Positions 30,701 to 64,000 of a DNA stretch of 64,000 nt are shown piece by piece. The DNA comes from Asterias amurensis (lineage: Eukaryota > Echinodermata > Asteroidea > Forcipulatida > Asteriidae). Within the stretch, counting starts at the first letter, position 1; every line of letters starts with the position of its first letter. The stretch spans positions 7,069,391 through 7,133,390 of the forward strand of contig NC_092657.1 in assembly GCF_032118995.1 (NCBI RefSeq), in the 5' to 3' direction. The notes beneath the pieces are model-generated. The model saw only the letters and a list, made by a program, of their open reading frames with translations, had not been told where the DNA came from and made no database searches. The position numbers and the translations under genes were made by a program.

Positions 30701-30779
30701 TTGTCGGTTACATATGGGTCATATTAAAATCTCTGGTGCAGTATCCAATGGGCGTTTATCACATCGGCCATACCATTTG

Positions 30780-32118: not shown

Positions 32119-33207
32119 TTACAGTCTAGATTCACCTGTATCGATAGAACAGACGCTCCGTGCAGTTGATTTATTATTACTCCTTGGTTTACTAACTGCA
32201 TTAAGTGAGTTGTCTGAGTACCGTCCACGCCGTCTAACGCATTCAAACGCCTCGGTAAACGCAGCTCTGTATTGTGCGTTAAACGCGCAGTAAATGATTG
32301 GATTAACAACAGTGTTAATCCGTAAAGGACTTTGAACAATCCAATCTGCGTACTTCCCAAGAAGAACACTGATAGGATTATCAAGACCCTCAAAGAATGA
32401 GCAGATCCAACCAGTCAGAATTAACAAAGTGAAAGGAGCTTGACATAAGAAGAACACCACACCATTGACTACCAACATCTTTGCGACTTGGTTACGGACG
32501 TGCCGCGCCTTTGAATTAGATTTTGAATTCTTGCAATCTGCGTTAAAGTCTTTGCGTTTGTTCAGTATGTGGATAATGCGAGCATACATGTAGACGTTAC
32601 CGATCATTGCAATACACCAAGGGATGACAAGAAGAGGCTCGCTGATGTACTGCATCCACTCAGCCCCCGGTATGGGACCGCAAAGTGAAATCTTTGATGG
32701 GAATCCTTTGTACATGTCTTCTTCGGGCCACCGTAGGCATAAGACTCGGTGATTAGCGAAACATGGAGTTATGATTAGCGAAAAACCTACTCCAATGCCC
32801 CAGCAGATTGCAACCATTTTATAGGTTCGTCTCCGACTGCGCATCTTAAGATGCTGGATTGGATGACACAATGCGAGGTATCTTTCAAACGTCACCATGG
32901 TAACCAGTGCAATGGATGTCTCCACTGCCGTGTTTAATGCAAAGTTAAATGTGACGCAGCCAAGAGTACTGCCGAATGGCTGGTGCTTTGACACTTGTGA
33001 GAAAGCAAACCTCCCCAAATCTTTCCCAGAAAACAAGATCAAAAAGAGCACATCGGACAGTGCCAAGTTTGCAAAGTACAAATCAGTTTCCGATCTTAGT
33101 CGGGGACTGCGGAAAAAGACGAACAAAAGTAACAAGTTGGTGAGAAGACCTAGGCCTAAGATTATCGGCACATTTAAGCCCATGTCACACGATTCTGTTG
33201 AACCCAT
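32119..33207 (-). CDS. Class A GPCR, peptide-receptor-like, copy A (short N-terminus)
   Basis: Intronless, 362 codons, intact. Seven hydrophobic segments are seen, with TM2 LALSD, ERYLALCHP at the end of TM3, FFLCQAPF in TM6 in place of the usual CWxP, and NPIIYCAFNAQYRAAF in TM7/helix 8. The tail ends SRL, which fits a class I PDZ ligand. By general resemblance it belongs with neuropeptide receptors (TRH/neuromedin-U-like); the ligand is unknown. Compared with copy B, 26 residues between MGSTESCD and VPIILG are replaced by MGLN. The extracellular N-terminus is therefore about a dozen residues and TM1 is at its minimum length. It differs from copy B at 30 other positions. It may be a functional paralogue or one crippled at the surface. 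Confidence 0.85.
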   Translation of the reverse strand: MGSTESCDMGLNVPIILGLGLLTNLLLLFVFFRSPRLRSETDLYFANLALSDVLFLILFSGKDLGRFAFSQVSKHQPFGSTLGCVTFNFALNTAVETSIALVTMVTFERYLALCHPIQHLKMRSRRRTYKMVAICWGIGVGFSLIITPCFANHRVLCLRWPEEDMYKGFPSKISLCGPIPGAEWMQYISEPLLVIPWCIAMIGNVYMYARIIHILNKRKDFNADCKNSKSNSKARHVRNQVAKMLVVNGVVFFLCQAPFTLLILTGWICSFFEGLDNPISVLLGKYADWIVQSPLRINTVVNPIIYCAFNAQYRAAFTEAFECVRRRGRYSDNSLNAVSKPRSNNKSTARSVCSIDTGESRL

Positions 33208-34732
33208 TGTGAAACAACACTTTTCACGAAAAAATGGTGCGTGAACTTGTAGGTGTAACTGGCTCCTTAGAGTGTAAGTCGGTAATACCCAGATGTAAAC
33301 TCACTGAACAATGGTGTGTTTGTATTGCCTTACGTCCAAGAACATTAACAAAAGGGACAATATGTTCTCACTAGTCGGTTCTTTGTTTTCAGGTGTCCTC
33401 ACAAGTCCTTTGTGTACAAAACCATTGGTGATTGCTTCAATACAGGAACAACAGAAAGTACAATAGGTGTCGTCTAACGTATAGGTGTGATGTAGGGGTG
33501 ATTGTGTAGGTGTGTGTGGCTCCAACGAGTGTAAGTCGGCAATACCCAGCTTGAGTAGCAAAACGAACGATATACGATGTATTAAATGACACTCAAAAAG
33601 CGAAGCACTAAACTTGCGGATTGGTTGTCTGCGTCTGCGCAGAATGTAGTCTACATGTAGTTTGAGTCCGCACTGCTGGTAGCAAGCATCGAGTATCTAA
33701 TAACAAATTACAAAGTCAGTCTATTGTCTGTTTATCTATAAAGGACTGGTCTTTCAATCAACCGAAGTATTGTGAGCTTTCCAAGGGAATCCAGACTTTA
33801 GTTGAATAGATGACATAATTTTCAAAGAAAAGCCACGGTATGATGAAGCTTGAAGGTCAATGTCATATAATCAACTTGTTTTAACAAGTAATTTAAAAAT
33901 TACTTACGCTAATACGCTGGTGCTCACTAATGACTTTCTGGTTTATTGGAAATCGATTGATTACTGTAAGCTGGAAGGCCGTAAAATTCCTGTTTGGCCT
34001 TAAGAGTCAAGATTCTAAAGAGCAATTGCATTCCAATGCGAAATAAGTAAATTAAATCTTTTGAAACTTTTTGAAATGTCACGGCTTTCTTTATTGTTTC
34101 CACTAAGGTTTGAATCCCAAGGTGCACACACCCTCCATTAGGGGAAGACTGCACAAATAAAACCATTCATAGGGGAAGACATTTGTTGATTAACGACCAC
34201 AGACCGGTGGAACAAACAAACAATGGACTGACCCAGCGACTGGTAAGTAAAGACTTGTATAGACGATGTGACCTGTGACATCACTTGTTTACAAAAGAGC
34301 CACAGAGCCTGGACTTCCTGCAGGCACGATTTGTACACAGCATAATGAACAAAAACATTAAGTTGTATTTTTTATGGAGATCTGCACCGTTTAATTCCTA
34401 ACAACTTTTGATATGATCATAGGGGGCACATTTTAAAACTTGTCCAGCTTTTACTTTCATCATTACCCTTGGATTTGTGTGGAAATTATGACACAAAATG
34501 TCAACTTTCCCATAAGACGGACCTTACTAGTGCTTTGCCGGCCAGAATACTCGAAGAGTGTACAAGGCCACATCTGATTGTAAACAAAGTTCACGTGGTC
34601 TACGTGGAATACCAGAAAATACACAGGGGCGGTAGAGGTAGCGCTACTTGTGCGCCACCGACTTTAAAAATATTCCCATTCGACCCTCGTGCCCGGCTAC
34701 TGCACTGGTCGTAAACTGGGCTCCTGTCTTAC
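33208..34732. other. Upstream region of GPCR copy A
   Basis: Contains two related blocks of about 45 bp (TGTAGGTGTAACTGGCTCC ... GTGTAAGTCGGTAATACCC near 33250, and a cousin near 33506). Short frames on both strands (33301-33561, 33927-34166, 34138-34338, 34469-34714) recur in copy B but show no domains. No promoter element is assigned. Confidence 0.4.
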
Positions 34733-36770
34733 TTGATATATAGGTATAATTTGACCCATATCACCCCTGGTAATACCCGATATCTAGGTCTAACTTGACC
34801 CATATCACCTCTGGTAGTTCTTTATATCTAGATCTACTTTGACCCATATCACCCCTGGTAGTACTTGATATCTAGGTCTAACTTGACCCATATCACCCCT
34901 GGTAGTACCCGATATCTAGGTCTAACTTGACCCATATCACCTCTGGTAGTTCTTTATATCTAGATCTACTTTGACCCATATCACCCCTGGTAGTACTTGA
35001 TATCTAGGTCTAACTTGACCCATATCACTACTGGTAGTACCCGATATCTAGGTCAAACTTGATCCATATCGCCCCTGGTAGTTCTTGATATCTAGGTCTA
35101 ACTTGATCCATATCACCCCTGGTAGTACTTGATATCAAAGTCTAACATGACCCATAGCACCCCTGGTAGTACTTGATATATAGGTCTTACTTGACCCATG
35201 TCACCCCCTGGTAGTACTTGATATCTAGTTCTAACTTGACCCATTTCACCCCTGGCAGTTCATGGTAGGACTTGATATCTGGGTCAATAACCCTCTGGAA
35301 GTACTTGATACCTAGGTCTAACTTGACCCATATCACCCCTGGTCGTACTTGATACCTAGGTCAAACTTGACCCATATCACCTCTGATAATACTTAATGTC
35401 TGAGTCTAACTTGACTCAAATCACCCCCGGTGGTACTTTTTACCAAAGGTCAAACTTGACCAAATCACCCCTGGTCGTACTTAATTTATGGGTCAAATTT
35501 GACCCATATTACCTTTGATAGAACTTGATGTCCGAATCCAACTTGACCCATATCACCCCCTGGTAGTATTTGATATCAAGGTCTAACAAGGTCTTACTTG
35601 ACCCATATCACCCCTGGTCGTACTTGATTTCTGTGTCAAACTTGACAAATATCACCTCAGATAGAACTTGATGTCTAAGTCTAACTTGACCCATATCACC
35701 CCCTGGTAGTGTCCGATGTCTATGTCAAACTTGATCCATACCACCCCGGGTAGTTCTTGATATATGGGTCAATCGACCCGTGGTAGTACTTTATATTTGT
35801 GTCAAACTTGACCCATATCACCTCTGATAATACTTGAGGTCTTAGTCTAACGTGACCCATATCACCCCTGGTAGTGTTTGATATGTAGGTCTAACTTGAC
35901 CCATATCACCCCTGGTCATACTTGATACCTGGTCTAACCTGACCCAGCTTGTGATTACAGGTGTAGGTTTATGGGTACTATGTTATAAGTGAAAGTTACA
36001 CGAAAATCCATATCACCCCTGGTAGTACTTTGATATCTAAGTAAAACTTGATCCATATCACCCCTGGTAGTACTTTGATATCTAAGTAAAACTTGATCCA
36101 TATCACCCCTGGTAGTACTTTGATATCTAAGTAAAACTTGATCCATATCAACCCTGGTAGTACTTGATATCTGCGTCAATCACCCCCTGGTAGTTGATAT
36201 CTAGGTCAAACTTGACCCATATTACCCTCCTGTATTACTTGGTATGTGGGTCTGACTTGACATATATATTAAACCCGGTAGAACTTGATATCTGGGTCAA
36301 TCACCCCCTGGTGGTACTTGGTATGTACGTCTAACTTGACAAATATCACCCCATGGTAGAAGTTGATATCTGGGTCAAACTTGACCATAACACCCCTTGG
36401 TAGTACTTGATATCTAGGTCAAACTTTACCCAAATCACCACTGGTAGTGCTTGATGTAGCTGGGTCTAACTTGACCCATATCACTTCCTGGTAGTAGGTA
36501 ATATTCGGGCAAAACTTGAGCCATATCACTACCTGGTAACTTGATATCTGGGTCAAACATGACCGCCGCAACCCATGGCATTACTTGATTTCTGGGTCAA
36601 CTTGAGCCATATCACCCCTAGTAGTTCTTAATATCTTGGTCAAACTTGACCCATTTCACCCCCTGGTAGTACTGGGTTTTTAAAGTAATGTGACCGGAAC
36701 TCGCATTCTGGGTCAGTTTGACCTATCTATGTGTCATTTTGAAATGTATTCCGGGTCAAAATTACCCAGA
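34733..36770. repeat. 44-bp satellite, about 45 units
   Basis: Unit GTAGTACTTGATATCTAGGT followed by CTAACTTGACCCATATCACC and CCTG. The first 10-12 units are well conserved, and there is a higher-order repeat of about 132 bp. Units then diverge toward 36.7 kb. Copy B begins the same array at 63450, but its early units are in a different order and number, showing turnover after the duplication. Open frames inside are artefacts. Confidence 0.95.
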
Positions 36771-44834: not shown

Positions 44835-45650
44835 TAAACTTTTCAACGGGGAGATTTCCCCAGAATGCCGTTACCTGTTATGGGTAACTCACCACACTAG
44901 GGCTAGCTTAAATTCGGCTTCTTATTTTCATCTCGGAAAACTTGAGTGAGCGGTAATTGTTAAAGCTATTCCACATGAATCCACCCAGACGGCTGTATTC
45001 GGCATGGTGGAAATAAAGCCCGTTCAGATTGGACGAAAGACAGAACCTGAACCACCAGCCCCCTGGATACTCGTGTGCGCAGTTGCCTAAGGCATTGACG
45101 TCGGTGTCTTTGTCTTTGGTCGTGAAACCCATTCTCTGGTGGGATTTTAACCCGTCAGCTGAAATATAAAAACACGAGGTCATAGTCATAAAACTACAGG
45201 TATGTGATATAGGATACAGAGGGGTAAGTATGAATCGGGCTCTTATGTTGCCTAGGTTATAACCACAATGCACAAACTGAGAGGATTCTTTTGTGAGAGA
45301 TGTGAGATAATTCTCACAATCCGACACAGCTTCAGTTGCAGGGCTTATTTGACAGAAGAGTATGCCGCCACATGAGTACACCAATCACTCTTACCATGTA
45401 CGTACATGATGAGTCCAACATTAATAGTGTACGTACATAATAACTTCATGTACGTACACGATAGTTTCCAAAACTGATCGTGTACCCTCCGTGATAAGTC
45501 TAAACAAATATCGTGGATAATAAATACATGATAACTTACTGTGTAAAGTTTACATAAATGATAGATCCAAACGTATCATGTACTTATGCGATAAGTCCCA
45601 AACGAACATGATGCACGATATGTTATTGTGTACGTACACGATAAGTTAAT
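44835..45650 (-). pseudogene. Inverted partial copy of the fibrinogen gene (last exon and intron)
   Basis: The minus strand repeats the end of the gene at 3680-7864. The last exon (44908-45159) runs from an acceptor TATATTTCAG through [46 protein letters not shown] and EMKIRSRI to a stop. The upstream intron with GTACACGATAAGTT motifs (to about 45650) and about 70 bp of 3' flank are also copied. No fibrinogen exons lie further upstream, and the copy ends about 80 bp short of the large transposon. The exon itself is open and only moderately diverged. It is a genomic (not processed) fragment; it could serve as an exon only if spliced from elsewhere. Confidence 0.8.
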
Positions 45651-45731
45651 AGGGTTTAATGCGTAACGCAGTAAACCGATTTAACACCAGGAAATATGCA
45701 TAATTATAGTCAGGTTGCACAGTCGGGGCTA

Positions 45732-45800
45732 TAGACAATGGGCCGTGAGGCTAATATCTCTTTAGTTTTCCAATTCAATGACCACCATCTGGGGTGGGGG
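45732..45800. repeat. Left terminal inverted repeat of the large transposon
   Basis: TAGACAATGGGCC followed by imperfect similarity to the right end through about 45790 (CAATGACC ... GGGGTGG). The left flank is GTCGGGGCTA. Confidence 0.7.
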
Positions 45801-47331
45801 TGAAAAGTGGATAATATGGGACCCAATACCCTTCTCAGCAACATATTTTTTTTCACAGTCGCAAATATTGCACATGAGCGAGAATGGCTGGCTCAAAGTT
45901 TAAGTTAACATCAAGTGTATGTTATAAATTCATTACAAAAAAACCTTAGTTACTAAGAAAAATTCAAATGAAATTTCATCATGAGAGCAATGTTTATTGA
46001 TTTTGATGAAGGAAAACATACAAAAATAGTTGATTCTTTACATTAAATCAATAAAATAGTGGTTTTTAAAGTTTAAAAAATGTTGTATTTTACAACGTGT
46101 AGTTCATGTTTTTTTAGAACAAACCAAGAATGTATGCCTTAAACAAAAGTGAAAAACTCGCTCTAAAGGCATACAAATGTAGAATCTTTGTAAGGGGTGC
46201 TATATTATGCAACTACAGACTGCTTAGACTGCTATGGTTAAATCTCCAACTCCAGCGGTCAGCTTTGGAAGCGTAGCCTGATGAGAAATATAATGCTCTG
46301 GGGTCGCCATTGGATGCAAAGTTTCAACCACAACACTTCAAGCACTCAAAATTTTTTTTAACACCCCATACAGTTGTCCTATTGCACAACGCGCATACAC
46401 GGGCATCTCCTGTCGGCCAATAGGGGTCGAAATGTGCGCAAGAGGATGGTACACGTGTTTACACACAAATGCGCATGTAAACATGTATGCCATCCCTAAC
46501 CTTAGTGCATGTTTGACCCCTAACCTGGCCTAAATTTCATTACAAACGCTTTAAATCTCACAGTATGCTACCCTTGTCCAAGGCTTTTACGTAAGCACCC
46601 TGCCGCTTTGAATTCATTCATGCATTGCAGTAAAAACTTGATACAGTATACATGTACCCTGGGGATTGAAGCAAGTTTTTTAAAAAAAAATTTGCTGTAT
46701 ATCATGAGGTTGAAAAACCACTATTCGATCCCCCAGTCTGTATAACGGGCAGTACTGCGGTACTGCGCCAGAATTGAGCAGTTCGTCGTCCAACATGTGA
46801 TTCATGCTACTAGTGAATTCAAAGCGGGATGCTTGAGTAAAGAGCCTTGGACAATTTTCAAGATGCTGAATGTTACACCATTTTCTGATTAATCTTTTTC
46901 AATTGGTAGATGATTTGTTGTTAGAGGATATCAGCAGATGAATAAACAACTTTTTGTACCCGAATAACTTTAGTACTTCCTGAGGTTATTTAAATCAAAC
47001 TACATAAAAAGAGTCCATCCACTCTATTTAAACTTTTCTCTTCAGGATACAATGATGCAAACCTTAATGGGCCATTGGCACAACCTACATAGTATATTAA
47101 GTATATTTTGTTTCATTGACGCAGCACTGTGGCTTATTGATGCAAGTCTTTGTACTCACATTCTTATAAAAGCAGCTTTTCAAGTCCATCTGTGCGATTC
47201 TGTAATACTAGGAATTAGAAAAATAATCCCTGACACAAGTGCCTCAAATCAACAAAATATACTTGGCTATCAAGCATATGGCCCCAGTCTCTCTACTGTA
47301 ATCATAGACAGTCAACAGTCAAATAGTTGCT
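45801..47331. other. 3' region of the large transposon
   Basis: About 1.5 kb downstream of the minus-strand stop. AT-rich, with no recognised gene. The plus-strand frame of 159 codons at 47052-47531 lies mostly antisense to exon 3 and is rejected. Confidence 0.5.
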
Positions 47332-50300
47332 CTAATCTTCTTCAGGATCAGATAACTCATCATCTTCATCTTCATCATCGAGGTGAGCATGTCCAGTTAT
47401 ATTGTTACAGTTCTCTCTGGCACACTTACAGAGATCAGTACATGGAACATTGTTCTGCAAACAAGTACAGGTGTTGGTATCACTGCATTTGTTCTTCGTG
47501 CAACTTCCAGAACAGTTGGCAAACTCCATGACACTATCTGGTGCTGGTGGAAGGGTCATCCAATTGATGAGAAGGTTACCATTTTCCATCTTCCATCCAT
47601 GGTTAGAAGGTAGTGGGATCTCTGGAGTGGGTTGAAGGCTTCTCTTCCATATACCTGCCAAATCAAAACAATGAGTCATAATTACTAAATAGGTATTTTT
47701 TGGTAAACAGTAATTCCACGAATTACATGTCTGCAAATTATTAAATTTGAGAAAAAGGGCAACATGCTAGCCACAGACGATTGCACATCTAGAGTCATTT
47801 CCTTTTTTGCCAAAACGTTCAATGTGCTATAAAAAAAATTAGTTTCACACTGTTTTATGAGAGTTGATTGTGGATTTTAGGGTGATAAATTGCTTTGCCT
47901 CATTGATGAATTCAATTCAGAATTTGAAAACAACGCATGTTGTGGATACAGGGTACACTTTCATTTTATTACATGGAATATGTAATAATGAGAGAACCTC
48001 TATGCTTTAAACCATGTAAACCAATAATTTAATTTCATCTTATATAGTAAAATGATAATTTTAAAGCAGAGAGGTTCTATCATTATGTAGAAACTCCATG
48101 GAATTGAAGTCATAAAACCACTATCCATTGCAAAGTAATAACTGAGCGAACACTTCAAAAGCGGCACACAGTTGATTGTGTCCAAAATTAATCAATATCT
48201 TCATGCAGCACACACAATACACAGTTACAAAGTGTTTGTTCAATAGTAATCTGATAAATACAAGAACTTCAACATACCTGCTTGATAGTTTGCTCTTTTG
48301 ATGTGTTGTTCAAGTGAGTCATGGTTGGGAGGCATGGCTATCTCTGACTTCCTTGATAGACGGAACATGTTATACCGGGCTTCGTTCACTTCAGTGGCAT
48401 TCTTTTGTCCATAGAGCTTGCACACAAAAGTCTCCAGTGATGCTACCATGTTATGATCTTCTTCGAACCGCTCGCCAAGGTCTTTGAATGCATCACACAG
48501 CTGGCTATCTTTGAGCAGCATTGTTAATGCCTTCTTCTTCCCTTTCCCTTTAAAAGCACTGATGCTATCGCACCCGGTGAAGCAATGCAGCCCAATCAAG
48601 GCATTACAAACTTCGGCTCCTACAACCTCTTGGATGGCTTTTAGGTTTATTGTCCTAAGGTCAGTACCTCTCCCAGTATGAAGATACAGGTTGGCATTAA
48701 TTCGTGGCAGTAGAGTGAGACCAATTATGAAGACATCCGTGTCGGGACTGATAATGACGACTTCAGTGTTGGTAAGTGCTGCATGAGCTGCATGCAGAAA
48801 AAGCCGGGTGTCCGCTTCTTCCTGTGTTGAGTGCAGAGATGGAACTTCAGCCACTTCGACTATCTGGTCTGCGGCAGTCCCTGGTGTGAAAGAGTGACAC
48901 TTTTCACCGTGTGCCAAGAACACTTGGACACCTTTCAGCTCTGATGAATTAACATTGCTCCATGTCTCGAACAAATACTCTATCAGAGATTCTTTGCTCT
49001 CCCCATTTGAAAGGAACTTCTTCCACTGGTGAAGAGGGAGTTGTTGGCCATAAACCCGCGTCACTCGATCTACTCCGTCTGCAGCTGCAGCTCGTTTCGC
49101 CCTCTCTGCATTTTTAATTGACATCTTGGGGTAGGTGTCAATCACAAAATGTATTGTACCAGAATTGACTGCCTTTGCTCGATTGACTATCCGCTTCAAG
49201 ATGATGAGGGCAAGATTGCGGAATGTTGGTTGACCTGGAAGCTTAGTCACATTGACCTGTTGAATCAGTGCCATCCCATCCACAATATAAACACTACCAG
49301 CAGGAATATCAACAACTGGCTTCTGTTCCGGCTGACTTTCAAGGGCATGAAGAAGATTGGCCTTGTTGGTCTTAACAAGACATCCCTGTGCAGTGGCCAA
49401 TGAAAGAGGTAGAGGTCCGAGAGAAAATGACATCAGTTCCTGTAGGTTTATATTGCGATAACGACCAATGACGACAAGCCTTGCTAGGAGATTTCGATCA
49501 GCCTGTAGAATTACCTCCTTTCCACGTATTTTCCGCTTCAAGCTTTTGACCATGCTGGTGAATGTCTTCAACTTCATCTTTTTGATAGGACAAAATAGGT
49601 CGACTTCATCAGTTTGTAGTCGAGTCTTGCAGAGTTGGATGACCTCTGCATCTCCCCTATCATAGGCAGTAGACAGGTCATGCTGCACATCAATATTTGC
49701 TACCAAACCTGATGTTATCTGAATTAATTCAGCTCCCTCATACACGAATGGATTTGCCATGTTATTTGTCGTATCAACTATTTTCTGGACATCTTGTTTA
49801 TCACGCTTCTTATGACTTGAAAGGAGGTCATTATGTGTAGAAGAATGCTCCCCTCTATTGGCCATGGCCTCACACTCTCGTGTTATAGCTCCTCTCGCAT
49901 GATGTGCCCATATCCATCTGTTGACAGTGCCTTTGCTGGTTGTAATTCCAACCATTCCTCCTTTAGTTTTTGAGTCTCGATTGGCGGTTTGTTCAATGGT
50001 CTGGTCACAGGCCGTCTGAGCAAATGTATGCTGGCTTCTCTGTGATGTAAAATCTCCTGCCATAAAACTTGTATAAATGGCTGGATGGGATGTCGCTACA
50101 TTGGCCATTTCGAGCCAATACACAGGAAGATATCGGGCGTAGTTGATGTGGTCATAAGCAAATATCCATGGCAGCATTGCTCGTGTGCTTGCAAGGTGTA
50201 GATTCCAGTCGGCCTCTCTGATGGATCTGAGGAAGAGTAGAAGGATTTGAACCATGTCGATGTATGTGGACCAATATCTAAAGGTCTCCTTTGTGTTACC

Positions 50301-53300
50301 AGCTTCTATAAATTGCTGATAGGAGGATGTCAGCTGATGAAACTCATCACTGTCCATATGTTTATTATAGTCCGATGTCGGGAAGTCTGCAGCCATGATT
50401 TTCATGAAATCCTTTGTTTTCTTTGCCTTTTCATCTGTTATAGACTCCAGATACGCATCTAGGCGCATATGTTCCATAGCTTCCATCATAAGCTTGTGGG
50501 CACGAACTGATCGATTGTAGTGTTTACCACTGATTACACCATTCACTGATCCAGTAGCAACAACCTCAGATTCTATGAGAATGTCTTCAAGACCCCCATC
50601 CCGGAACCGCTTGCCTATGCATCCAATAAACGACATAGAAGTATGGAAAGCACCAAGGCGAATCACTAGTCTCTTCATGAAGACAGCATTTCTCCATCTA
50701 ATCAGCTGGGCTTTAGAGTAGATGGCCTGATCCATAACAATGACAAGTGTTTCTAAAGCCAGCTTGTCTGCAATTTCAACACTTCTTTGTAATATTGTCA
50801 GGACTGTGCTCATCTCAGTAGGGCTTGCGTCAATGACTGGCAGATAACCGATCACTGATTTGGGTGGTACTTCTACACTTGAAATTAGTTGGTTGTACCC
50901 AGTCCATGAAGGTATCACGGGTGTCTCTGTGGTCCATCGTGTGAGGTGATAGGCGAGGTCTCTCTTCTTGGGGCTTCTTAGTAATGGTGCATACACCGAC
51001 AGCTCCAAAGATATCTCAGTTTCCGCAAATGATGGCGGCCCTGACTTCTTTACCCCTAAGTATGTAGCAAGGTTTGGTGGTGGTGGTTGCATGGATCTTT
51101 CTCGGGTACGCTTTAATCTAGCCTGAGGCACATTCGACGGAGAATCTTTGTCGGATGAAGATGGTCTTTGAATTACAATACCATTTGTATTGTGTGTTGT
51201 ACCATGGCCAGTTGTCGTCTCTTCTCCGAAGTCATTATTGTCCCAGACCAGAGTTGTGTGCCTGCCTGGCAGTATTGTTGATGGTAGAGCACCTTCCCCG
51301 TGGCTTAGTTCCTGCTTGGCAATAGCTGTGTCAAGATTTAAGATGACAGAGTGAGAGACACAGTGACCAAACCCATTCAGCAAACCAATAACCTGTGCTG
51401 AACCTGTCAAATGACGGACTGCCATAGCCAATGACATGTGTTTCGGCGTTTGTTTTTTTCCTTTTCCCTGCAGATAAACAATATCCTGAGCTATTGACAG
51501 GATTTTTTTGTGAACTCCATCTGCTACCTTCACAAATACATCAGTCTCAGGATTATCAGAAGCCCCAACAATCCAAGCGATGAAGTTGAATAGGCAGGGG
51601 GGTGTCATTTGTTCAGCAGTTTTAGTAGTTAGGTGCTCTGATGTTGGGGGCCATGGCATTTTATTCTGCACAGCTGCTATGGCATTTCTCATCATTAATG
51701 CCGGCAAGAAGCCATCTTTCATGTGCGAATTTTCTTGATGGTCTGGCGGCGGTGGTGTTGATGGTGTTGATGGTTCTTCATTGTCAGTAGCACTGTTGTC
51801 CACACTGGTGGTATCATCATGTATAGCCTCTTTGCTGACTTTTTGTTCAACTAGCAATGTTTCCGTGGCGATGTCATTGACGAAGACAATATCTCCTTGA
51901 CTTCGCATCCGAGGAGAATGGAAACACAGCTGCGGAAATGTTTTCTGTAGGCGGGTTTTGAGATTGCCTGTCTTATAACTGGAAGCGTCTATTCCATGGC
52001 AGATTCTAATTTGTTCGACAAACATTCTGGTCAGTCTTGTCAGTCTGTAGATCTCTTTCTGGTCGATGATGACTGACTTGACCATAGTGCAGAAAGCAAG
52101 ATAAGCCTCAGCATACCGATGGTCTCCTCTCTCCAGCTCGGTTGGTGTCTGTTTGGATAAGTACCTTGTGTACTCTTTGTAACAGCGTGGATGGTACCTT
52201 ACTTCGATGGCCACACAATCCTTGCTCTCAATTTGAAGGAGAAGAGCAGTGTTGTTGCTGTCCTTTGCTGCTTGTTGTAGATTCTTGGCCTCGATGGTTG
52301 AGCATGTGGCGAGCCTTTCTCTTTTCCTCTTGCGTGAATGAGCCTCTACAAAATATCGCTCCCTCTGACAGATCACACATATTTCAGGTAAAACATGCTC
52401 AGTCCTTGCTTTCCCTTTCAATTCCATACTTGAACGCAGAACACGTTTCTTCTTGGGTCTTTCTTCTGTACACACAAAAAAAGAAAGTAACACAACAAAT
52501 AAATTGCAGGGAAAGATATCAAATTTACCATAAGTACGCAAAGCATTTCAAAACAGGCTATTTTGATTATAATCCAGGCAAAAGAATAAAAAACTTGGTC
52601 TAAAACCAAATTTTTACCAGATCTGGTATGTATATGTATGGTAAAATAAAATTATTTTAGCATCTACAACTTACTTACCAGTTCTGGTACATGTATGTAA
52701 ATGTTAAAATAAAATTGTTTTAACATGTACACCGTATAACCAGTTGTGGTAACCAATGGTAAAATAGAATTATTTGAGCATGTACAACGACACCAGTTGT
52801 GGTACGTAAATGGTAAAATAACATATTATTTTAGCATATGTACAACAACACCAAATGTGGTACGTACATATATGGCATGTACAACGACACCAGTTGTGGT
52901 ACGTTAAACGGTAAAATAAAAAGTTATTTTAGCATGTACTTGTAGACTGCATATTAACCAGTTCTGGTATGTACATGGTAAACAAAAATTATTCAGCATG
53001 TATAGCAACACCAGTTCTGGTATGTTAATGGTAAAATAAAATTATTTCAGCATGCACAGTGAAAGTGTTTATCAGTTTTGGTACGTACATGTAAATGGTA
53101 AAATTAAATTATTTTATTAGCATGTACAACGATACCAGCGTACATGGTAAAATAAAATTATTTTGTTAGCATGTACAACGATACCAGTTGTGGTACGTAC
53201 ATGGTCAAATAAAATTATTTTATTAGCATGTACAACAACACCAGCATACATGGTAAAATTTAATTATTTTAATAGCATGTACAACGATACCAGTTGTGGT

Positions 53301-54384
53301 ACGTACATGGTCACATTATTTTATTAGCATGTACATACCACGATACCAGCGTAAATGTTAAAATTAACTTATTTTATTAGCATGTACATGTACAACGATA
53401 CCAGTTGTGCGTACATGGTAAAATTTAATTATTTCGGCATGTACAAAGTGATACAGTTTTGGCAAGACATGCCAGGGTACTACATACATGCTAAAATAAA
53501 ATAATTTCTGGCATGAACACTGTATGTACCAGTTCCTAGTTCCACTTGTGGATTAATTTAGCATATTAATCTGTTCTGATATAAAAATTAAATATTTTAG
53601 CAGTTGCGGTTTGTACATTTCTAGTAAATTGTAGTAGAACTTCTACCTAGTAGAAGTAGGCGTAGGCCCTCTATGCTAAAAATACAATAAACTTTAAAAG
53701 GGAAGCTTTCACAGTTTCAGTTTTACTAGAACAACCATATTAACAAACCGTGTTAAAAACAACTGTAAGTTTAATGGAAATCTTATGATGGTGTTGACAT
53801 TGTGTATTTTGTCCTACAACATGTACAACAAGTACCCAAACCCTTTGTAGGCTATTATAATTAAGTTTTTGCTTGCTGCTTGATCTGTCCTGACTCTAAT
53901 TGTAGTATTATTGTGTTGCCAGATCGGAAAGACTAAAATTCCATTAGTTAGACCTATCAGAGATATACCTGTCATGCTTGTAAAAAAATACATTTGACAT
54001 ACCTGTACAAGCAGAGCTGCTGGCAACCATTTCTCTGCTCTTCGTCATCCGTTGAGTTACTCGTAAAATGTGTTGCTTGTCGGTAAATCTCGAATAACAA
54101 ATGCGGTGGAATCCTGCATCGCTCGGAATTGCCATCGCCGATGCAATGTTGTCGCCATGTCTGTTGAACTCGGCAGCATGTTTGTTGACGAAATCTTTTG
54201 CTATTTCGGCCTGATCGCCCTCTAAATGTTGCCATTGAAGAACAAACTCTACAAAACGAGCCCATGTCTTGCTATTACATTTCACTACCTTGGGTTTTTT
54301 GGCCGGGAAAGTACACATAAAACATCGTTTCTGAAAAAATTCTTCGTCGCTCGATAAAATTTCGTCCGCAGACGAGTCGGCCAT
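47332..54384 (-). CDS. Transposon-encoded 1630-residue protein with XPG/FEN-like nuclease
   Basis: Three exons: 54003-54384, 52465-48278 and 47654-47332, all GT-AG. Phases agree and give 1630 codons without a break. Residues 21-24 and 93-96 form C-x2-C ... H-x2-C (CFMC, HRIC); 157-160 and 219-222 repeat the pattern (CVIC, HPRC). A basic patch KKKR follows the first splice, at about 133. The central region includes VIDASPTEM (D673) and VIVMDQAIYSK (D706), possible transposase aspartates. Residues about 1187-1440 look like a FEN1/XPG nuclease: VDGMALIQ (D1190), QEEADTRLF (E1343 on), SPDTDVF (D1369, D1371) and GCDSISAFKGKGKKKA (D1427). RANYQAGIWKR spans the second splice; LPPAPDSV precedes nine cysteines at 1571-1606 (CXC/TSO1-like) and an acidic tail. 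Probably nuclear and catalytic for transposition. Related proteins are, from memory, common in cnidarian and echinoderm genomes as uncharacterised products. Confidence 0.85.
52610..53480. repeat. Minisatellite in intron 1 of the transposon gene
   Basis: About 16 imperfect units of 50-66 bp: ACCAGTTGTGGTACGTACAT, then GGTAAAATAAAATTATTTTA, then GCATGTACAACGA. Some units lack the GTTGTGGTACG part. Unit starts such as ACCAGTTCTGGT are perfect 12-bp palindromes. It occupies more than half of the 1.54-kb intron (52466-54002). Confidence 0.85.
53481..54002. other. Intron 1 sequence proximal to the donor
   Basis: AT-rich intronic DNA between the minisatellite and the first exon's donor (minus-strand ACAG followed by GTATGT). 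The short palindrome TAGAACTTCTACCTAGTAGA lies near 53636. No gene. Confidence 0.5.
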
Positions 54385-54699
54385 TTTGTGCTATCCCGTC
54401 CATCCTGATGCCGATAGTAGAGCGCTTCTCATTGGTCCGCACGGACAGTGGGATTTTCGTCGGAGTTACGGCTTTTCTGATTGGCTAACCATTTTAATGG
54501 AGGCTCGTGTATTTTACAAAAGAATTGTGAAAATATTGAGACGTTCTTTGTATCATTGTGAAGTCAAAAGCCGGTATCTATCTTGTGAAAAGCTATGGTA
54601 ATTAAGATTTATTTTTCTCATTACTATAATGGTTGTCCGACTTCCACCCCTTTCCTGGGTCATTAACTGAAAAGATAAACTCCCAGGGCCCATTGTCTA
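54385..54699. promoter_or_regulatory. 5' region and right terminal inverted repeat of the transposon
   Basis: 315 bp between the start codon (54384) and the element's right end must hold its promoter. No TATA box is evident in the expected place. The terminal part (54630-54699) is the right inverted repeat, ending CCCATTGTCTA. The next base, 54700, starts the duplicated copy B. Confidence 0.55.
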
Positions 54700-57053
54700 A
54701 TCTTGTTGTCAAGTAGCCTAACGCGGAGGTTTTGCATGGTGAATATATAACTTAGTCGGTCTATTTGGTTTCGTGGTATGCAGTCTATCATACACGGTGC
54801 CGTTGAAACACCTTTGCGTCGGTGATCCCCAAATTGAGGAAGTTGTGTCAGGACAGAATCTAACTATGGTGACCTTGAAGCGTTATGGCAATTATGTTTT
54901 CCTTCCCGCAGCTCTCACGAAACAGTCAGGCCGAGCTTAACGGCAGACTCGACGTTTTTCGTACAACCCACGGCCTTAAAGAGCATAGATTTCTGTTTAG
55001 AGCCTAAAATCTGTTTAAATGTCGGTTGCTAGACCATCATACGGTTGGGGATAACCATCTAGACGACAACTCTACCCGGATGGTGTAGTCATGTTTGACT
55101 GATATGACACACGTGTAGCCTCATACGGAGGGAAATGACCTTACACGGCAACCTCACAAGGACACGGAGGAACCTTTTAGAGCTCCATACTATGGATGAT
55201 TTTAGTTTTAATCGGCTTGGTCCTCAGGTAAAGCTTTTTATTTCTTCCTTATGGCTTGGGTCAAACACGAGAAAAGGGATATCACTGAAGTAGTATATTA
55301 TTTTTATAGGCCGATACTTGCAACGGGTACAGAAGTACATTAAACCTTTGGAGCAGTCAGAGGCCAACGTCACGAGGAAGGAGCTGTCCATACGTTATAG
55401 GCGAGACCAGCTCGTTGGTGGTAGGCGAGGTTATGAGCCAGCTCCCATCAGGTCAAAAGCAAAAAGAATAAAAAAAAGAAAAAGGAAAAAAAAAAAAAAA
55501 AAAAAAAGTGACGAGGTCTGATGGCAGTGATCACTCCTTGGCAAACTCCGCGGGGATGTGTCCTCCCTTGTTTATTGCCCCTAAGCTGGCACAGTTTGCT
55601 TTTTATCAACAAATGAGTTGGTGGATGGGGGTTTTGTTGTTTTGTAATTTTGCTTGCTTCATCCGACGATCTTCTATCACAGGAGGCAGTAGATTCTAAC
55701 TGCTTCTCGCAGCATCAGCGGGTCGAGATGACTGCGCATTGTGTGCCCACGTGGTCGATTTTGGGGGTTTCCGAGTTTGGGCAACTCAAAGATGCGAGAA
55801 TTCAGCAGACAGTCAGTGGCCATAGAGAAAGTATGAGAAGCATGCATGGGTCTTCTTCATCAGATGAAGATGTTACCGAGCATAGAGCTCAAACCTCAGC
55901 ACCAAAAGGCCTATACAAGTTGGCTATCTAGCTGTGTTGACGTTTGGCGTAGCAGTTTGACCGAATGGCGGGCGTTCCAACCTTTGGGCCATCATTTAGG
56001 TTTGGGTGAGAAATGGGGAGTTTTGGTAAGAACCGGATGCTTGAGGCGGTCTGGGGTTTGGTGAGAGTTGGGAGGTTTAGGGTTTCCTTTGCTTTGTCGG
56101 CGTGAGGAAGCACGCCACAGGGTTAGAAGCGAACAATCGTTTACACCCATATCTAAACCTAAATGTAGAGTCTTGAGCCCACGAGTGTGCAGTGGTGCAA
56201 ATAGTTTACTATTTGCGCCACTGTGAACCAAGAGGGCGCATGATTCAAATCATTCGCGTTTCTGGCAGGCTCAAGGTGGAGAGGGGATACGGGAGTCAGT
56301 GATACAGCAAGTGGTTTGTAGGTTAGCAAGGGGGAAATGTACCCACCCAGTCCCCCCCCCCCCTTCTTCCCGGATCAGTATAAGAACTGTCAACCATCCT
56401 ATTTGGTGTACCCCTCCCTAAAAGTCCGTCTGGCTTTAAGTGAGGGGCACAACTTTCACAAATGGTCCAACACTTTTGGATGGTCCGTGGTCCCCCTAGG
56501 CAAAAGTAAATAGCAAAATCAGTACAATGTTTCATTTCAAATTTAGACGTAACCAGAGAAATTTGTAATGGCCAAATATGCGTACAGTGAGGTTTGGCCA
56601 CTGGGCCGGTTTTACAGTACGTCTGAGTAGGGTACAACACTTTTTTTCTTGTTTTCTTTTTTTTTTGCATCCCACTTACCCATTCCACAGGGACAGTTGT
56701 AACAGAGGGAAAACTCCGGACTCGGGATTCTACACCCCCAATCGTTTACACCCATATCTAAACCTAAATGTCGAGTGTTGAGCCCGCGAGTGTGCAGTGG
56801 TGCAAATAGTTTACTATCTCAATGAGTCCCAACGTCTTCGGATACAAACTGAACTCGCTTTAAGTACTGCGAGTAATCTTAAGTTAGGAAGAGTTTGGTG
56901 AAAACGAAAACGATGACTGTTCCCCAATGCTTTCAACTACAAAAACTGCGTCCATTTAAAACATTTTGTTTAAAGATTCACGTGCCATATGCAACCACTC
57001 CTTTGTAACTTGCTTAAATATCTACACATTACACCGCCACCAAATTGACAATA

Positions 57054-57687
57054 TGGAGCTTTCGATTTGGGGCGGGAGGAGGAAGGGGACGGTAACGAGA
57101 GCGCACAAATTGATCAGCGCATGCGAGAAAATGAACAGGAAAATGAGCAGAGTTTGGGAACGGTTTATGGTTGAAATAACGTCCCGTCTAAGCACTACCG
57201 AATGGTTCCGTTAATTTGTACACGTTGTTATGGTTGTTATACAATGCACTTAACCGTGATCAGTGTGGCCGTGTCACCGTCCGGTTCATAGCTAGAAATA
57301 CAAACAGCTTACAAATCAGGGCCCAATTTCATAGCGCTGCTTAACGCTACGCAAGTTTGCGTGCTTACTGTAGCAGAAAAAAATGGTTTAGCCTTAGCGT
57401 GTTTCACAGATTAGCAGAAAATTTGGGCGGCCATATTGCGTGTTTACCGTGGATTTGGATTGTGTAGCATTTATTTTCGTGCGGTAAGCACCGGAAGGTT
57501 AGCATGCCTCTTCGTTTGCTTACGGTTAGCAGCGTTATGAAATAAAAGTTGCACAGTAAGCACAAAATCGGCCGCTAAGCAGCGCTATGAAATTTGGCCC
57601 AATACGGGAGCGTGAACGCCGGGACCGCCGCGTTCGGTTACTTTTCGTCTTGAACGCCCCACCGTCCCAAATCGAAAGCTCTCTAAA
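57054..57687. mobile_element. Nested inverted-repeat elements in copy B
   Basis: Partner of 28553-29186: outer arms GGAGCTTTCGATTTGGGG and inverse, with the GGGCCCAATTTCATAG hairpin element at 57319-57601 inside. Only scattered single-base differences from copy A. Confidence 0.7.
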
Positions 57688-57795
57688 ATCTTTTTTTCTC
57701 AATCAATTCGCTCCCCTTTTCATTAAATCAACATACCAATGATTACCTTCAATATTTCTCCCGAAACATTGTTCTCAGTCGTAGTTTGCCTTGAG

Positions 57796-58180
57796 TAAAG
57801 ACGCTGGACCCTATTGGTCATTGTCAAACACCAGTCTTCTCATATTTAGTGTATCTCAAAATAAGCATGATATTACAATTCTGTGAAAATTTGAACTTAA
57901 TTGGTCGTCGAAGTTGCGAGATAACTATGAAAAAACACCCTTGCCACACGAAGTTGTGTGTTTTCAGATGCTTGATTTCGAGACCTCAAATTCAAATTTT
58001 GAGGTCTCGAAGTCAAATTCTCGGACAGTTACTTCTTTCTTGAATACCACTTCACTTCACTTCAGAGGGAGCCGTTTCTAACGATGTTTTATACTATCAA
58101 CCTCCCCACATTACTCGCTACCAATTGATGTTTTATGCTAATAATTAGTTTGAGCAATTACCAGTGTTCATTGCCTAAAA
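57796..58180 (+). mobile_element. TTAAAGGCAGTGGACAC-family MITE in copy B
   Basis: Partner of 29296-29674, with the same degraded termini and a 5-bp tandem gain (CACTTCACTTCACTTCAGAG region). Insertion predates the duplication. Confidence 0.8.
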
Positions 58181-60214
58181 TTCCAACACACTAATTGTTA
58201 TGCTCACTGTTTCATTTGAATCTTACTCTCCTACTTTTACATGTGTACTCCATCATCCAATTTTCAAACCGGACTCAGTGGTATGTTAGTTTACATTTAC
58301 ATTTTAAACGGTTTGAAGATATAAGCTTCCTTTGAAATACTACTTGCTGGTGCTGGTACTGGTGCTGTAGTTTTTAAGACCTGAGCAAGTCATATTCACG
58401 GGAATAATTTAGGCATGTACAACGGATATACGCGTCTCCCCTAAAGGGTTTGGAGACTTTTTATAACACAAAACACACTGTCTGCAGATTAACATTCAGA
58501 CACACAGTTTGACGCTAATGATAGCAGAAAGCCCCCCTTAAAATATCACAGACTGAGGTGCTGTCATTTTATTTATTTTTTTTTTGAGAAATGAGTAAAA
58601 CATTGTCACAACAATATTTTCGTCTCAATTTAAGAAGTGGTATTGCCATTAACTGGGTAATACGTTTCGCTTTGCTTCATTGGTCATCGTTAAAACCGTC
58701 CAAATTGCTAATTCAAACATCCCAAGGTAATTTACTAGACCTTGTCACTCCACCCGAAACCCTTATTATGATGACCGATTGCTCAAACTGCATGGTTGTA
58801 ATAAACAACCAGTCCAAGTAATATTTTTATAATTTGTAAATTCAGGCAAACATATTTCCTATGAATAACTAATGCACGGAGCGCTTATGCATTAGTTTTA
58901 TGTTATTCACGCATTTCCCACAAATACTAAAGCTAAAAAGGGTCACTTCGCTTAAAGTGAGTACTGCACTGTAATACGATCATGGGGGACAAAAAGTCAA
59001 CTGAATAACGCAAACGAGTTTGTTGTGACGATGACGTCATTTGCGTCAGGTCGTGTCTTGGTCCAGCGAGGATCAAATTCCTAAAATCTCTTCGATACAG
59101 TTCAGGACAACACTTATTTCAAGTTCCTCAATCAATATAAATACAATGTTTACAAAGTGATACACAAAAATGTAGGACATTGGGGGCCACAACCAATTGG
59201 TAAGCACAGCTTGTGGGTTACAGAGATGGCCTTGTGGGTTACATATGGGTCATATTAAAATCTCTGGTGCAGTATCCAATTGGCCTTTATCACATCGGCC
59301 ATACCATTTGGGACTCATTTCACTTTTCATGGCTCTTGTGGGAACCATTTCATGGCCCTTTTGGGAACCATTTCATGGTCCATGTGGGGCCCATGTTATG
59401 GCCCATGTGGGAACCACGTCATGGCCGAATTGGGAACCAATTCATGGCCCAGGTGGGAATCATTTCATATCAATAATGCGACCTAACCAACTTGGATTTG
59501 ACACACGGACTGTGGTTACAATAAAAAATAAAAAATAAAACGTTTTCCAGGTAAAACAATCTTTTTTTGCCAGCGTGTTAACCGTTTCGCACGTACAGTG
59601 TGCGGTATCAACCACTACGAACACAGCATACAGCAAAGTGTATTAGAACAATTTGATTTTGCCGGATAACGTCTACTGCCTTTCAAATAAATAGGTGATT
59701 TTTGCCTTTTTTTCTTCCAGAGAAAATATTAAAACAAAACTTTGTTTCGTCAAAGGTGCCCAGTAAATAATAAATAGTAATAACTATATTTTATTAATAA
59801 TTGAAATTTAAAAAATCACCCGTGTTTAAACTTTCAAAAGTCATCCAAGGTGAAATGACTGTAATAGTACAAAGTCATCCAAGGTGAAATGACTAATTGT
59901 ACAACCAAAAAGTCGTTGTTTTGCAAACAAAAGAATAACCGACTTTAAAGTGTTTGTTTTAAGTAGTTACATGCTAGTGTAAAATCCCTTGATCAATAGT
60001 GAAATGAAAGAAACTCTGTAAAAATATTGTGTTCGTAAAGAAAAGACTTGTCGATTTCCATTCTCGAAAAGCTCACAGATCAAACAGTAGGTTTTGGATC
60101 ATGTGAAAATGAGGCCATTGCAACGTGTAAGCATCAAATAATATAATCTTTGGTAAGTGCAGAGTGAGAGCAACGTTCTGATGTAAGAGACCTACTGCAC
60201 TCATTTAAATAACA

Positions 60215-60545
60215 ACGTGTAATGGTTTACAAGGTACCGTGGCGCAATATGCTGCCAATCAAATATGGGGATGAATTTGAATCTCGAGTTACGACGAGTT
60301 AAGACTAGCCTTTAGTTTTGTATATCTCCTAAGACTAGTCTTAAATTAGGACTAGTCCAAACTCTTTTTAAAATCGACCCCAGGAAAAACTTTCACTGGG
60401 TTATCATTCGTGCATTACACAGAAGGACATAAAAAGAATGTTTAAGTACACAACTGTCACGACTGGGATTCAAACCCGCAATACGGTGATCAGTAACGCC
60501 GGCTCTTGAGTAAGGTTGTCTTATCCACTTGGTTACGACACGTCA
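60215..60545 (-). mobile_element. SINE-like repeat with tRNA-type promoter boxes
   Basis: Read on minus, GTCGTAACCAAGTGGATAAG (A-box-like, about 60522-60541) is followed about 45-50 bp later by GCGGGTTTGAATCCCAG (B-box-like, about 60463-60479), as in a tRNA-derived SINE head. The body contains TTAGGACTAGTC-type inverted motifs, and the tail ends near GATTGGCAGCATATTGCGCC. Copy A has lost the B-box segment. No tRNA fold was demonstrated, so this is not called as a tRNA gene. Confidence 0.6.
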
Positions 60546-60724
60546 AAATAACGCTCAAAGATTCCCGAAACTAGGTGGTTGTGAATCGCAACTAGAAATG
60601 TTAAGTTTCAAACGAACTGAAATTAAATGTCAGGGTTGATTGCTGTCTATTACGAAGATAATTTTGACAGTTTAGGTCACAAACAAGGACATTTCACTGC
60701 TTTTGTTGTACCAGTCACCGTTAT

Positions 60725-61879
60725 TTACAGTCTAGATTCACCTGTATCGATAGAAGAGACGCTCCGTGCAGTTGATTGATTATTACTCCTTGGTTTACTA
60801 ACTGCATTAAGTGAGTTGTCTGAGTACCGTCCACGCCGTCTAACGCATTCAAACGCCTCGGTAAACGCAGCTCTGTATTGTGCGTTAAACGCGCAGTAAA
60901 TGATTGGATTAACAACAGTGTTAATCCGTAAGGGACTTTGAACAATCCAATCTGCGTACTTCCCAAAAAGAACACTGATAGGATTATCAGCACCCTCAAA
61001 GAATGAGCAGATCCAACCAGTAAGAATTAACAAAGTGAAAGGAGCTTGACATAAGAAGAACACCACACCGTTAACTACCAACATCTTCGCCACTTGGTTA
61101 CGGACGTGCCGCGCCTTTGAATTAGATTTTGCATTCTTGCGATCTGCGTAAAAGCTTTTGCGTTTGTTCAGTATGTGGATGATGCGAGCATACATGTAGA
61201 CGTTTCCGATCATTGCAATACACCAAGGGATGACAAGAAGAGGCTCGCTGATGTACTCTATCCAGTCAGCTCCCGGTATGGGACCGCAACGTGAAATCTT
61301 TGAGGGGAATCTTTTGTACATGTCTTCTTCGGGCCACCGTAGGCATATGACCCGATGTTTAGCGAATAGTGGAGTTACGATTAGTGAAAAACCTACTCCA
61401 ATGCCCCAGCAGATTGCAACCATTTTATAGGTTCGTCTCCGACTGCGTATCTCAAGATACTTGATTGGATGACACAATGCGAGGTATCTTTCAAACGTCA
61501 CCATGGTAACCAGTGCAATTGATGCCTCCAATGCCGTGATTAATGCAAAGTTAAATGTGACGCAGCCAAGAGTAGTGCCGAATGGCTCATGCTTTAACAC
61601 TTGTGAGAAGGCAACTCTCCCCAAATCTTTCCCAGAAAACAAGATCAAAAAGAGCACATCGGACAGTGCCAAGCTTGCTAAGTACAAATCAGTTTCCGAT
61701 CTTAGTCGGGGACTGCGGAAAAAGACGAACAAAAGTAACAAGTTGGTGAGAAGACCTAGGCCTAAGATTATAGGCACACCTACGGTAATGATGAAGAAAT
61801 CCACGGAATCGAAGATCCACTCTGACAAATACTCTTCCGTGATGATTCTGTGGTCGTCACATGATTCTGTTGAACCCAT
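60725..61879 (-). CDS. Class A GPCR, peptide-receptor-like, copy B
   Basis: Intronless, 384 codons, intact. An extracellular N-terminus of about 27 residues precedes TM1 (FFIITVGVPIILGLGLLTN). LALSD is at 70-74 in TM2, C106 at the TM3 top with C179 or C198 as loop partner, ERY at 130-132, IPWCIAMIGNVYMYARIIH in TM5, FFLCQAPF at 274-281 and NPIIY at 324-328. C345 after helix 8 could be palmitoylated, and the C-terminus ESRL fits a class I PDZ ligand. It is the more complete version of copy A, from which it differs by 30 substitutions and 22 more residues net, although the flanking DNA of the two copies is almost the same. General resemblance to TRH/neuromedin-U-type receptors; ligand unknown. 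Confidence 0.9.
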   Translation of the reverse strand: MGSTESCDDHRIITEEYLSEWIFDSVDFFIITVGVPIILGLGLLTNLLLLFVFFRSPRLRSETDLYLASLALSDVLFLILFSGKDLGRVAFSQVLKHEPFGTTLGCVTFNFALITALEASIALVTMVTFERYLALCHPIKYLEIRSRRRTYKMVAICWGIGVGFSLIVTPLFAKHRVICLRWPEEDMYKRFPSKISRCGPIPGADWIEYISEPLLVIPWCIAMIGNVYMYARIIHILNKRKSFYADRKNAKSNSKARHVRNQVAKMLVVNGVVFFLCQAPFTLLILTGWICSFFEGADNPISVLFGKYADWIVQSPLRINTVVNPIIYCAFNAQYRAAFTEAFECVRRRGRYSDNSLNAVSKPRSNNQSTARSVSSIDTGESRL

Positions 61880-63449
61880 TGTGAAACAACACTTGAACTA
61901 TTGTAAACACCGATGCCTATTCACGACAAAAATGGTGTGTGAACTTGTAGGTGTAACTGGCTCCTTAGAGTGTAAGTCGGTAATACCCAGATGTAAACTC
62001 ACTGAACAATGGTGTGTTTGTATTGCCTTACGTCCAAGAACATTAACAAAAGGGACAATAGGTCCTCACTAGTCGGTTCTTTGTTTTCAGGTGTCCTCAC
62101 AGGTCCTTTGTGTACAAAACCAATGGTGATTGCTTCAATACAGGAACAACAGAAAGTACAATACCGGTAGGTGTCCTCTAACGTATAGGTGTGCTGTAGG
62201 GGTGATTGTGTAGGTGTGTGTGGCTCCAACGAGTGAAGTCGGCAATACCAGCTTGAGTAGCAAAACGAACGATATACGATGTATTAAATGACACTCAAAA
62301 AGCGAAGCACTAAACTTGCGGATTGGTTGTCTGCGTCTGCGCAGAATGTAGTCTACATGTAGTTTGAGTCCGCACTGCTGGTAGCAAGCATCGAGTATCT
62401 AATAACAAATTACAAAGTCAGTCTATTGTCTGTTTATCTATGAAGGACTGGTCTTTCAATCAACCGAAGTATTGTTAGCTTTCCAAGGGAATCCAGACTT
62501 TAGTTGAATAGATGACATAATTTTCAAAGAAAAGCCACGGTATGATGAAGCTTGAAGGTCAATGTCATATAATCAACTTGTTTTAACAAGTAATTTAAAA
62601 ATTACTTACGCTAATACGCTGGTGCTCACTAATGACTTTCTGGTTTATTGGAAATCGATTGATTACTGTAAGCTGGAAGGCCGTAAAATTCCTGTTTGGC
62701 CTTAAGAGTCAAGATTCTAAAGAGCAATTGCATTCCAATGCGAAATAAGTAAATTAAATCTTTTGAAACTCGACCATTGATTTCAATGTCACGGCTTTCT
62801 TTATTGTTTCCACTAAGGTTTGAATCCCAAGGTGCACACACCCTCCATTAGGGGAAGACTGCACAAATAAAACCATTCATAGGGGAAGACATTTGTTGAT
62901 TAACGACCACAGACCGGTGGAACAAACAAACAATGGACTGACCCAGCGACTGGTAAGTAAAGACTTGTATAGACGATGTGACCTGTGACATCACTTGTTT
63001 ACAAAAGAGCCACATAGCCTGGACTTCCTGCAGGCACGATTTGTACACAGCATAATGAACAAAAACATTAAGTTGTATTTTTTATGGAGATCTGCACCGT
63101 TTAATTCCTAACAACTTTTGATATGATCATAGGGGGCACATTTTAAAACTTGTCCAGCTTTTACTTTCATCATAACCCTTGGATTTGTGTGGAAATTATG
63201 ACACAAAATGTCAACTTTCCCATAAGACGGACCTTACTAGTGCTTTGCCGGCCAGAATACTCGAAGAGTGTACAAGGCCACATCTGATTGTAAACAAAGT
63301 TCACGTGGTCTACGTGGAATACCAGAAAATACACAGGGGCGGTAGAGGTAGCGCTACTTGTGCGCCACCGACTTTAAAAATATTCCCATTCGACCCTCGT
63401 GCCCGGCTACTGCACTGGTCGTAAACTGGGCTCCTGTCTTACTTGATAT
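61880..63449. other. Upstream region of GPCR copy B
   Basis: Same content as 33208-34732, with about 35 bp extra near 61890-61920 just upstream of the start. No separate gene recognised. Confidence 0.45.
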
Positions 63450-64000
63450 ATAGGTATAATTTGACCCATATCACCCCTGGTAATACCCGATATCTAGGTC
63501 TAACTTGACCCATATCACCTCTGGTAGTTCTTTATATCTAGATCTACTTTGACCCATATCACCCCTGGTAGTACTTGATATCTAGGTCTAACTTGACCCA
63601 TATCACCCCTGGTAGTACCCGATATCTAGGTCAAACTTGATCCATATCACCCCTGGTAGTTCTTGATATCTAGGTCTAACTTGACCCATATCACTACTGG
63701 TAGTACCCGATATCTAGGTCAAACTTGATCCATATCGCCCCTGGTAGTTCTTGATATCTAGGTCTAACTTGATCCATATCACCCCTGGTAGTACTTGATA
63801 TCAAAGTCTAACATGACCCATAGCACCCATGGTAGTACTTGATATATAGGTCTTACTTGACCCATGTCACCCCCTGGTAGTACTTGATATCTAGTTCTAA
63901 CTTGACCCATTTCACCCCTGGCAGTTCATGGTAGGACTTGATATCTGGGTCAATAACCCTCTGGAAGTACTTGATACCTAGGTCTAACTTGACCCATATC
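63450..64000. repeat. 44-bp satellite at the end of copy B (cut by window)
   Basis: Same GTAGTACTTGATATCTAGGT units as 34733-36770. The order and variants of the first units differ from copy A: several A units with CTCTGGTAGTTCTTTATATC are missing or moved. The array continues past the window. Confidence 0.95.

Follow-up and report, generated by a model that had tools for sequence, protein, structure and literature searches.

A probable AcademX-like transposon across a deletion in a tandem receptor-gene array of Asterias amurensis

Results

A large gene between perfect inverted ends

The window analyzed here is a stretch of 64,000 nucleotides of the Asterias amurensis genome, C10:7069391-7133390, where C10 denotes the window's contig. 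It lies in a tandem array whose units are 95-100% alike, and the neighbors include genes for rhodopsin-type receptors (7tm_1, E = 1.6e-34, 4.5e-32, and 5.7e-37) as well as one for a C-type lectin (E = 7.1e-18). The receptor-gene segment has tandem repeats in both of its copies, at 34726-36673 and 63440-64000. Within this array we find an element bounded by 13-bp terminal repeats that match perfectly in inverted orientation (Table 1). A first-pass annotation had placed inverted ends around about 9 kb, and this description holds, with 13 of 13 bp exact, the coordinates right, and 8968 bp between the boundaries. Past the first 13 bp, the two ends resemble one another imperfectly to ≈83 bp on the left and ≈67 bp on the right, a similarity whose score was reached by 11 of 500 shuffles.

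Table 1 Features of the element, its flanks, and the surrounding array. Positions are those of the window unless C10 is given.
Feature	Position	Strand	Remarks
Whole element	45732-54699	- (gene strand)	8968 bp; both ends coincide with flank breakpoints
Left terminal inverted repeat	45732-45744	+	TAGACAATGGGCC; imperfect similarity to ~45814; end common to L050 and L060
Right terminal inverted repeat	54687-54699	-	Imperfect similarity to ~54633
Exon 1	54003-54384	-	Encodes aa 1-127 and opens codon 128 (one base); CxxC motif at residue 21
Intron 1	52466-54002	-	Degenerate tandem repeat ~52610-53446 fills much of the intron
Exon 2	48278-52465	-	From the rest of codon 128 through one base of codon 1524
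Intron 2	47655-48277	-	Homology support for junction
Exon 3 and stop	47332-47654	-	Coding 47654-47335, stop 47334-47332; cysteine cluster aa 1571-1606
Transposase candidate region, D536-D706-E952	49992-51242	-	Candidate DDE residues, with H735 likewise conserved
FEN1/XPG-like nuclease region, D1190 to D1427	48567-49280	-	Conserved acidic residues and FEN1 profile alignment
Left flank (LR)	45482-45731	+	Array DNA and first 86 bp of a young repeat, broken off at the element's left end
Right flank (RR)	54700-61778	+	96% copy of 26220-33172, starting exactly at the element's right end
Array unit A	C10: LR 6881137, inverted marker 6902284, M 6917402, RR 6924771		
Array unit B	C10: LR 6975384, inverted marker 7004370, M 7024262, RR 7031755		
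Array unit C	C10: LR 7057554, inverted marker 7076529, M 7090890, RR 7095610		
Window unit	C10: LR 7114822, RR 7124087		Element alone between; inverted marker and M missing
Fifth unit	C10: LR 7142464, inverted marker 7163150		RR absent among the matches listed

Three exons on the minus strand, joined at GT-AG junctions, give 1630 codons without a stop, with codons 128 and 1524 split between exons. In all four relatives compared (L019, L024, L036, and L041), a single reading frame runs straight through the exon 2/3 junction, and L040 contains both exon-1-like and exon-2-like stretches, so that both junctions are supported. The complete three-exon gene with agreeing phases that had been annotated earlier is thus a supported prediction. 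Downstream of the gene's stop, the element also contains two short dispersed repeats at 46383-46529 and 46778-46854, the first of which has matches on both strands at 68-89% and looks like a small inverted-repeat element.

The 13-bp end also occurs elsewhere in the genome, which we searched as 491.5 Mb in 23 contigs, with repeat counts being lower bounds. Exact copies lie at 16 sites, two of which are the element's own ends, compared with five for a reversed control pattern. On its own the 13-mer is not a usable family marker; several sites fall in a satellite (L008 and L009) or in another repeat family (L002, L003, and L016). The satellite, on C8 at ~8.13 Mb, contains sequence like the element's end in units ≈71 bp apart. 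Members of the other family, to which L005 is distantly related, are ≈800 bp long and appear non-autonomous, with TAGACAATGGGCC at one end and an imperfect inverted copy at the other. Target duplications in this family are not clear when judged by eye, and it may be mobilised by a related transposase. Separately, positions 1502-1742 of L011 hold a 241-bp inverted-repeat element with ends resembling AGACAATGGGCC.

Candidate transposase and nuclease regions

Pfam returned no family for the 1630-aa protein at E up to 1, NCBIfam gave none for the two ORFs that contain exon 1 and exon 3, and a profile of the whole protein (A1) had no match in the PDB. Conserved residues are evident in an alignment of 13 rows, some of which are near-duplicates. 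Among rows with letters at the position, D536 is kept in 8 of 8, D706 and H735 in 12 of 12, and E952 in 11 of 11, and D539 is an alternative to D536 as the first residue of a candidate DDE triad. DDE transposases with a long insert ahead of the glutamate are a known pattern, which the conservation of D536, D706, and E952 would suit.

Closer to the C terminus is a second series of acidic residues, conserved in 11 of 11 rows with letters (D1190 and D1237), 10 of 10 (E1344, D1346, D1369, and D1371), or 9 of 10 (D1427). Using hhalign, a seven-row profile of this region aligned with a 21-row profile of archaeal FEN1 over 200 columns (E = 7.5e-4, probability 25%), as did a trimmed profile over 91 columns (E = 7e-4), whereas the transposase region, used as a control, reached only E = 0.42. 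The alignment places D1237 on the FEN1 VFD motif, D1369 and D1371 on DYD, and D1427 on GTD. Searches of the PDB with profile A2 put Exonuclease 1 at the top with a nonsignificant E of 1, and this match was missing with the trimmed profile A3. A single-sequence test with T5 flap endonuclease (E = 0.093) was uninformative because an unrelated T5 protein scored no worse (E = 0.025). Pfam detected no XPG family in seven members of the nuclease region, and single-sequence structure prediction of the region yielded no usable fold (pLDDT 34.9).

The region thus resembles FEN1/XPG 5' nucleases in the order of its acidic residues, with the element's DTD in register with FEN1 DYD and its GCD..GKGKK with GTD..GIGPKK. 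It differs in that the similarity is at the detection limit, E1344 aligns with just one of the FEN1 glutamates, the second, and the first conserved aspartate, D1190, falls outside the alignment. The XPG nuclease link made in the first-pass annotation is supported, though not proven, by these moderate matches.

Related families and copies in the genome

The protein has 39 genome matches, three of which are its own exons. Among them are four sets of near-identical relatives, A (L019, L020, and L022), B (L024, L025, and L029), C (L037 and L039), and D (L027, L030, and L032), whose main aligned pieces are 97-99.7% identical within each set. In family A, L019 measures 6258 bp and has inverted repeats of ≈420 bp starting TAGACTGGG. 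Both family A copies that were read to both ends have 3-bp target duplications (GTG and TTC), and for the third only the left end was read. Left ends read TAGTTGGG in two of two family D copies and TAATAGTAAGG in three of three family B copies, the latter showing no clear target duplication. Sharp ends with differing flanks are found in families A, B, and D, as well as at the left end of the window element's own family. Family A resembles the window element in its protein (≈29-30% identity over ≈1200 aa) and in ends that open with TAGAC and reach a GGG shortly afterwards, but it is shorter, has the inverted repeats of ≈420 bp and target duplications, and carries a 1544-codon open frame continuous across the exon 2/3 junction. 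Beyond this genome, scans of viral and prokaryote contigs confirmed no relatives, and tblastn found none in phage.

Copies of the window element itself are few. Its left end recurs at C8:20595676 and C8:5894154, starting at the same base with AGACAATGG and lying in differing flanks. These are the two left-end matches (80 and 82%) of 45732-46631, whose other matches are ≈37-190 bp of dispersed repeats. Exon 2 sequence (49300-52400) matches one relic at C8:12315006-12316126 at 91%, a broken internal fragment of 1.1 kb, in addition to one 54-bp stretch. Segments 48300-49300 and 54380-54699 match only themselves, and 46632-48299 matches, besides itself, short stretches of dispersed repeats. DNA searches covering 45732-52400 and 54380-54699 found no second full-length copy.

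Most of the element is therefore single-copy as DNA, as expected of a host gene with unshared ends, although other loci carry its left end and an internal fragment of 1.1 kb. The search for same-end copies proposed in the first-pass annotation accordingly gave the left end at two loci with differing flanks and no second full-length copy. The annotation's transposon reading is supported by the related multi-copy families with sharp ends, the 3-bp duplications of family A, the end shared elsewhere, and the broken second copy; judged from these sequence features, the element is a DNA transposon.

The element joins two different sites of the array

The left context of the element is array DNA, and its 300 bp have identical copies at C10:7142464 and C10:6881137, in sister units without the element. 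The left junction interrupts a young repeat (45646-45731) that starts with TTAA and recurs as 85-93 bp at 98-100% identity in at least 31 further places among 40 matches listed. In four of four other LR copies read, this repeat continues GGGGCTATAAGCG, whereas the window reads GGGGCTATAGACAATG. On the right, GATGCC precedes ATCTTG in three of three other RR copies read. Read along C10, LR is followed in turn by the inverted marker, M (window 21500-23499), RR, and the receptor genes, with LR and RR 43.6, 56.4, and 38.1 kb apart, start to start, in units A, B, and C, respectively. The window unit likewise has receptor genes downstream of RR. The first part of M, 21500-22242, is a dispersed repeat of ≈742 bp, 95-97% identical at 37 or more further places among 40 matches listed.

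With its left end at LR and its right end at RR, the window copy has flanks drawn from two different sites and does not represent a simple insertion. The simplest account of the sequence is a deletion of ≈38-56 kb bridged exactly by the element. No LR-RR join lacking the element was seen elsewhere, in that, with the two flanks searched as one joined sequence, none of the 47 matches listed crosses the junction by more than three bases. The description of an intact transposon copy consequently stands for gene and ends; an ordinary insertion does not, and the two-site flanks had not been foreseen.

No target duplication is found at the window copy in any register (CTA versus ATC, and TAT versus AAT in the next). 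With ends read as TAGAC, AGAC, or GAC, there is no 3- or 4-bp duplication, the best being two of three bases or a 2-bp TA. This absence follows from the element bridging a deletion between two sites. A deletion that came first, followed by insertion of the element at its junction, would also yield two-site flanks, but the insertion would have to fall exactly at that junction and a target duplication would be expected, making this order of events very unlikely. Units this alike are difficult to assemble, which would speak for an assembly error; such an error is likewise very unlikely, as two wrong joins would be needed, each exactly at an element end.

The age and constraint of the gene

An unbroken frame of this size had been taken as a sign of recent activity or domestication. 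Against the relic, 360 codons could be compared after setting aside four stop codons, in an alignment whose four internal gaps are each 1-10 bases long, giving dS of 0.21, dN of 0.048, and a ratio of 0.23. Five comparisons within families A-D, each with few changes, gave ratios of 0.27-0.51. Because intact related families give similarly low values, the ratio is not decisive; it fits an active transposon and a host gene alike and separates neither.

A former transposase retained by the host, with its ends persisting, would explain an unbroken frame in an element present as one full-length DNA copy, as well as the low ratio against the relic. On the other side, the 13-bp ends are still perfect, related intact families show similar ratios, and the left junction cuts a young repeat. 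Moreover, two sister units that lack the element carry all 300 of 300 bp of the junction's context unchanged, indicating a short residence of the gene at its present place. We thus consider domestication very unlikely, and recent placement is the part of the earlier suggestion that is upheld.

Discussion

The best explanation of the locus, and one we regard as likely, is an autonomous cut-and-paste DNA transposon, probably AcademX-like, of 8968 bp, whose left end lies at LR and whose right end lies at RR, bridging a deletion. In such an element, the transposase region would bind and cut the element ends, and the FEN1/XPG-like nuclease would process flaps. The element is probably a member of a known but little-studied animal transposon family, and its unbroken full-length gene for a poorly studied transposase-nuclease fusion offers a test case for the role of the nuclease in transposition.

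The placement of this copy is of more interest than its intact frame. Its position across a deletion in a recently duplicated receptor array ties this kind of element to gene-cluster change and suggests that such elements contributed to receptor-array loss, and both parent sites can still be read in sister units on the same chromosome. The deletion probably arose by recombination between copies or by aberrant transposition. Two directly repeated copies, one each at LR and RR, could have recombined to leave a single element across the deletion; to this homologous recombination we give about an even chance, and against it stands the lack of any second full-length partner in the sequence searched. 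Alternatively, an Academ-type transposase could have joined the ends of two copies by alternative transposition, removing ≈38-56 kb and again leaving one element, a route that is possible but distinctly less probable. Either would leave no target duplication. The remaining likelihood is divided among an insertion into an earlier deletion, an assembly error, and other causes. If the deletion was indeed transposase-made, the Academ superfamily would actively reshape tandem receptor-gene arrays. Alternative transposition is known to produce deletions in maize Ac/Ds (PMC3744419). The literature we found on alternative transposition and adjacent deletions makes no mention of Academ, which does not prove that reports are absent. 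The present case resembles the maize one in that the element lies at breakpoints of array rearrangements, whereas the events described there were isolated de novo (PMC3744419) and the route here is reconstructed from one assembled genome.

The assignment of an XPG nuclease-bearing Academ element is plausible given the FEN1 alignment, though that match is moderate. A transposon of another superfamily is accordingly unlikely rather than negligible. It gains from the moderate FEN1 link, from an Academ likeness that draws on descriptions rather than compared reference sequences, and from matches to DUF6589, weak and below threshold, that 7 of 13 relatives show; in a further search the two relatives that gave this match scored 17.7 and 14.2 bits, where the cut-off is 27. 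The 3-bp duplications of family A and the nuclease-like region, however, agree with AcademX as described in PMC10045372, and by likeness to such described features the AcademX-like label is the probable one for our element.

In that description, AcademX target duplications are 3 or 4 bp and those of AcademH 9-10 bp, a difference tied to nuclease versus helicase (PMC10045372). In a bivalve library, Academ is one of 17 DDE/D superfamilies and its elements average 5565 bp (PMC10294476), so that the window element, at 8968 bp, is longer. It also departs from AcademX in that the window copy has no target duplication, and the likeness is by description, not by alignment with Academ proteins. What the element appears to share with AcademX is its large gene, with candidate DDE residues and a region like FEN1/XPG, together with, in the related family A, target duplications of 3 bp, in keeping with the 3 or 4 bp described for AcademX (PMC10045372).
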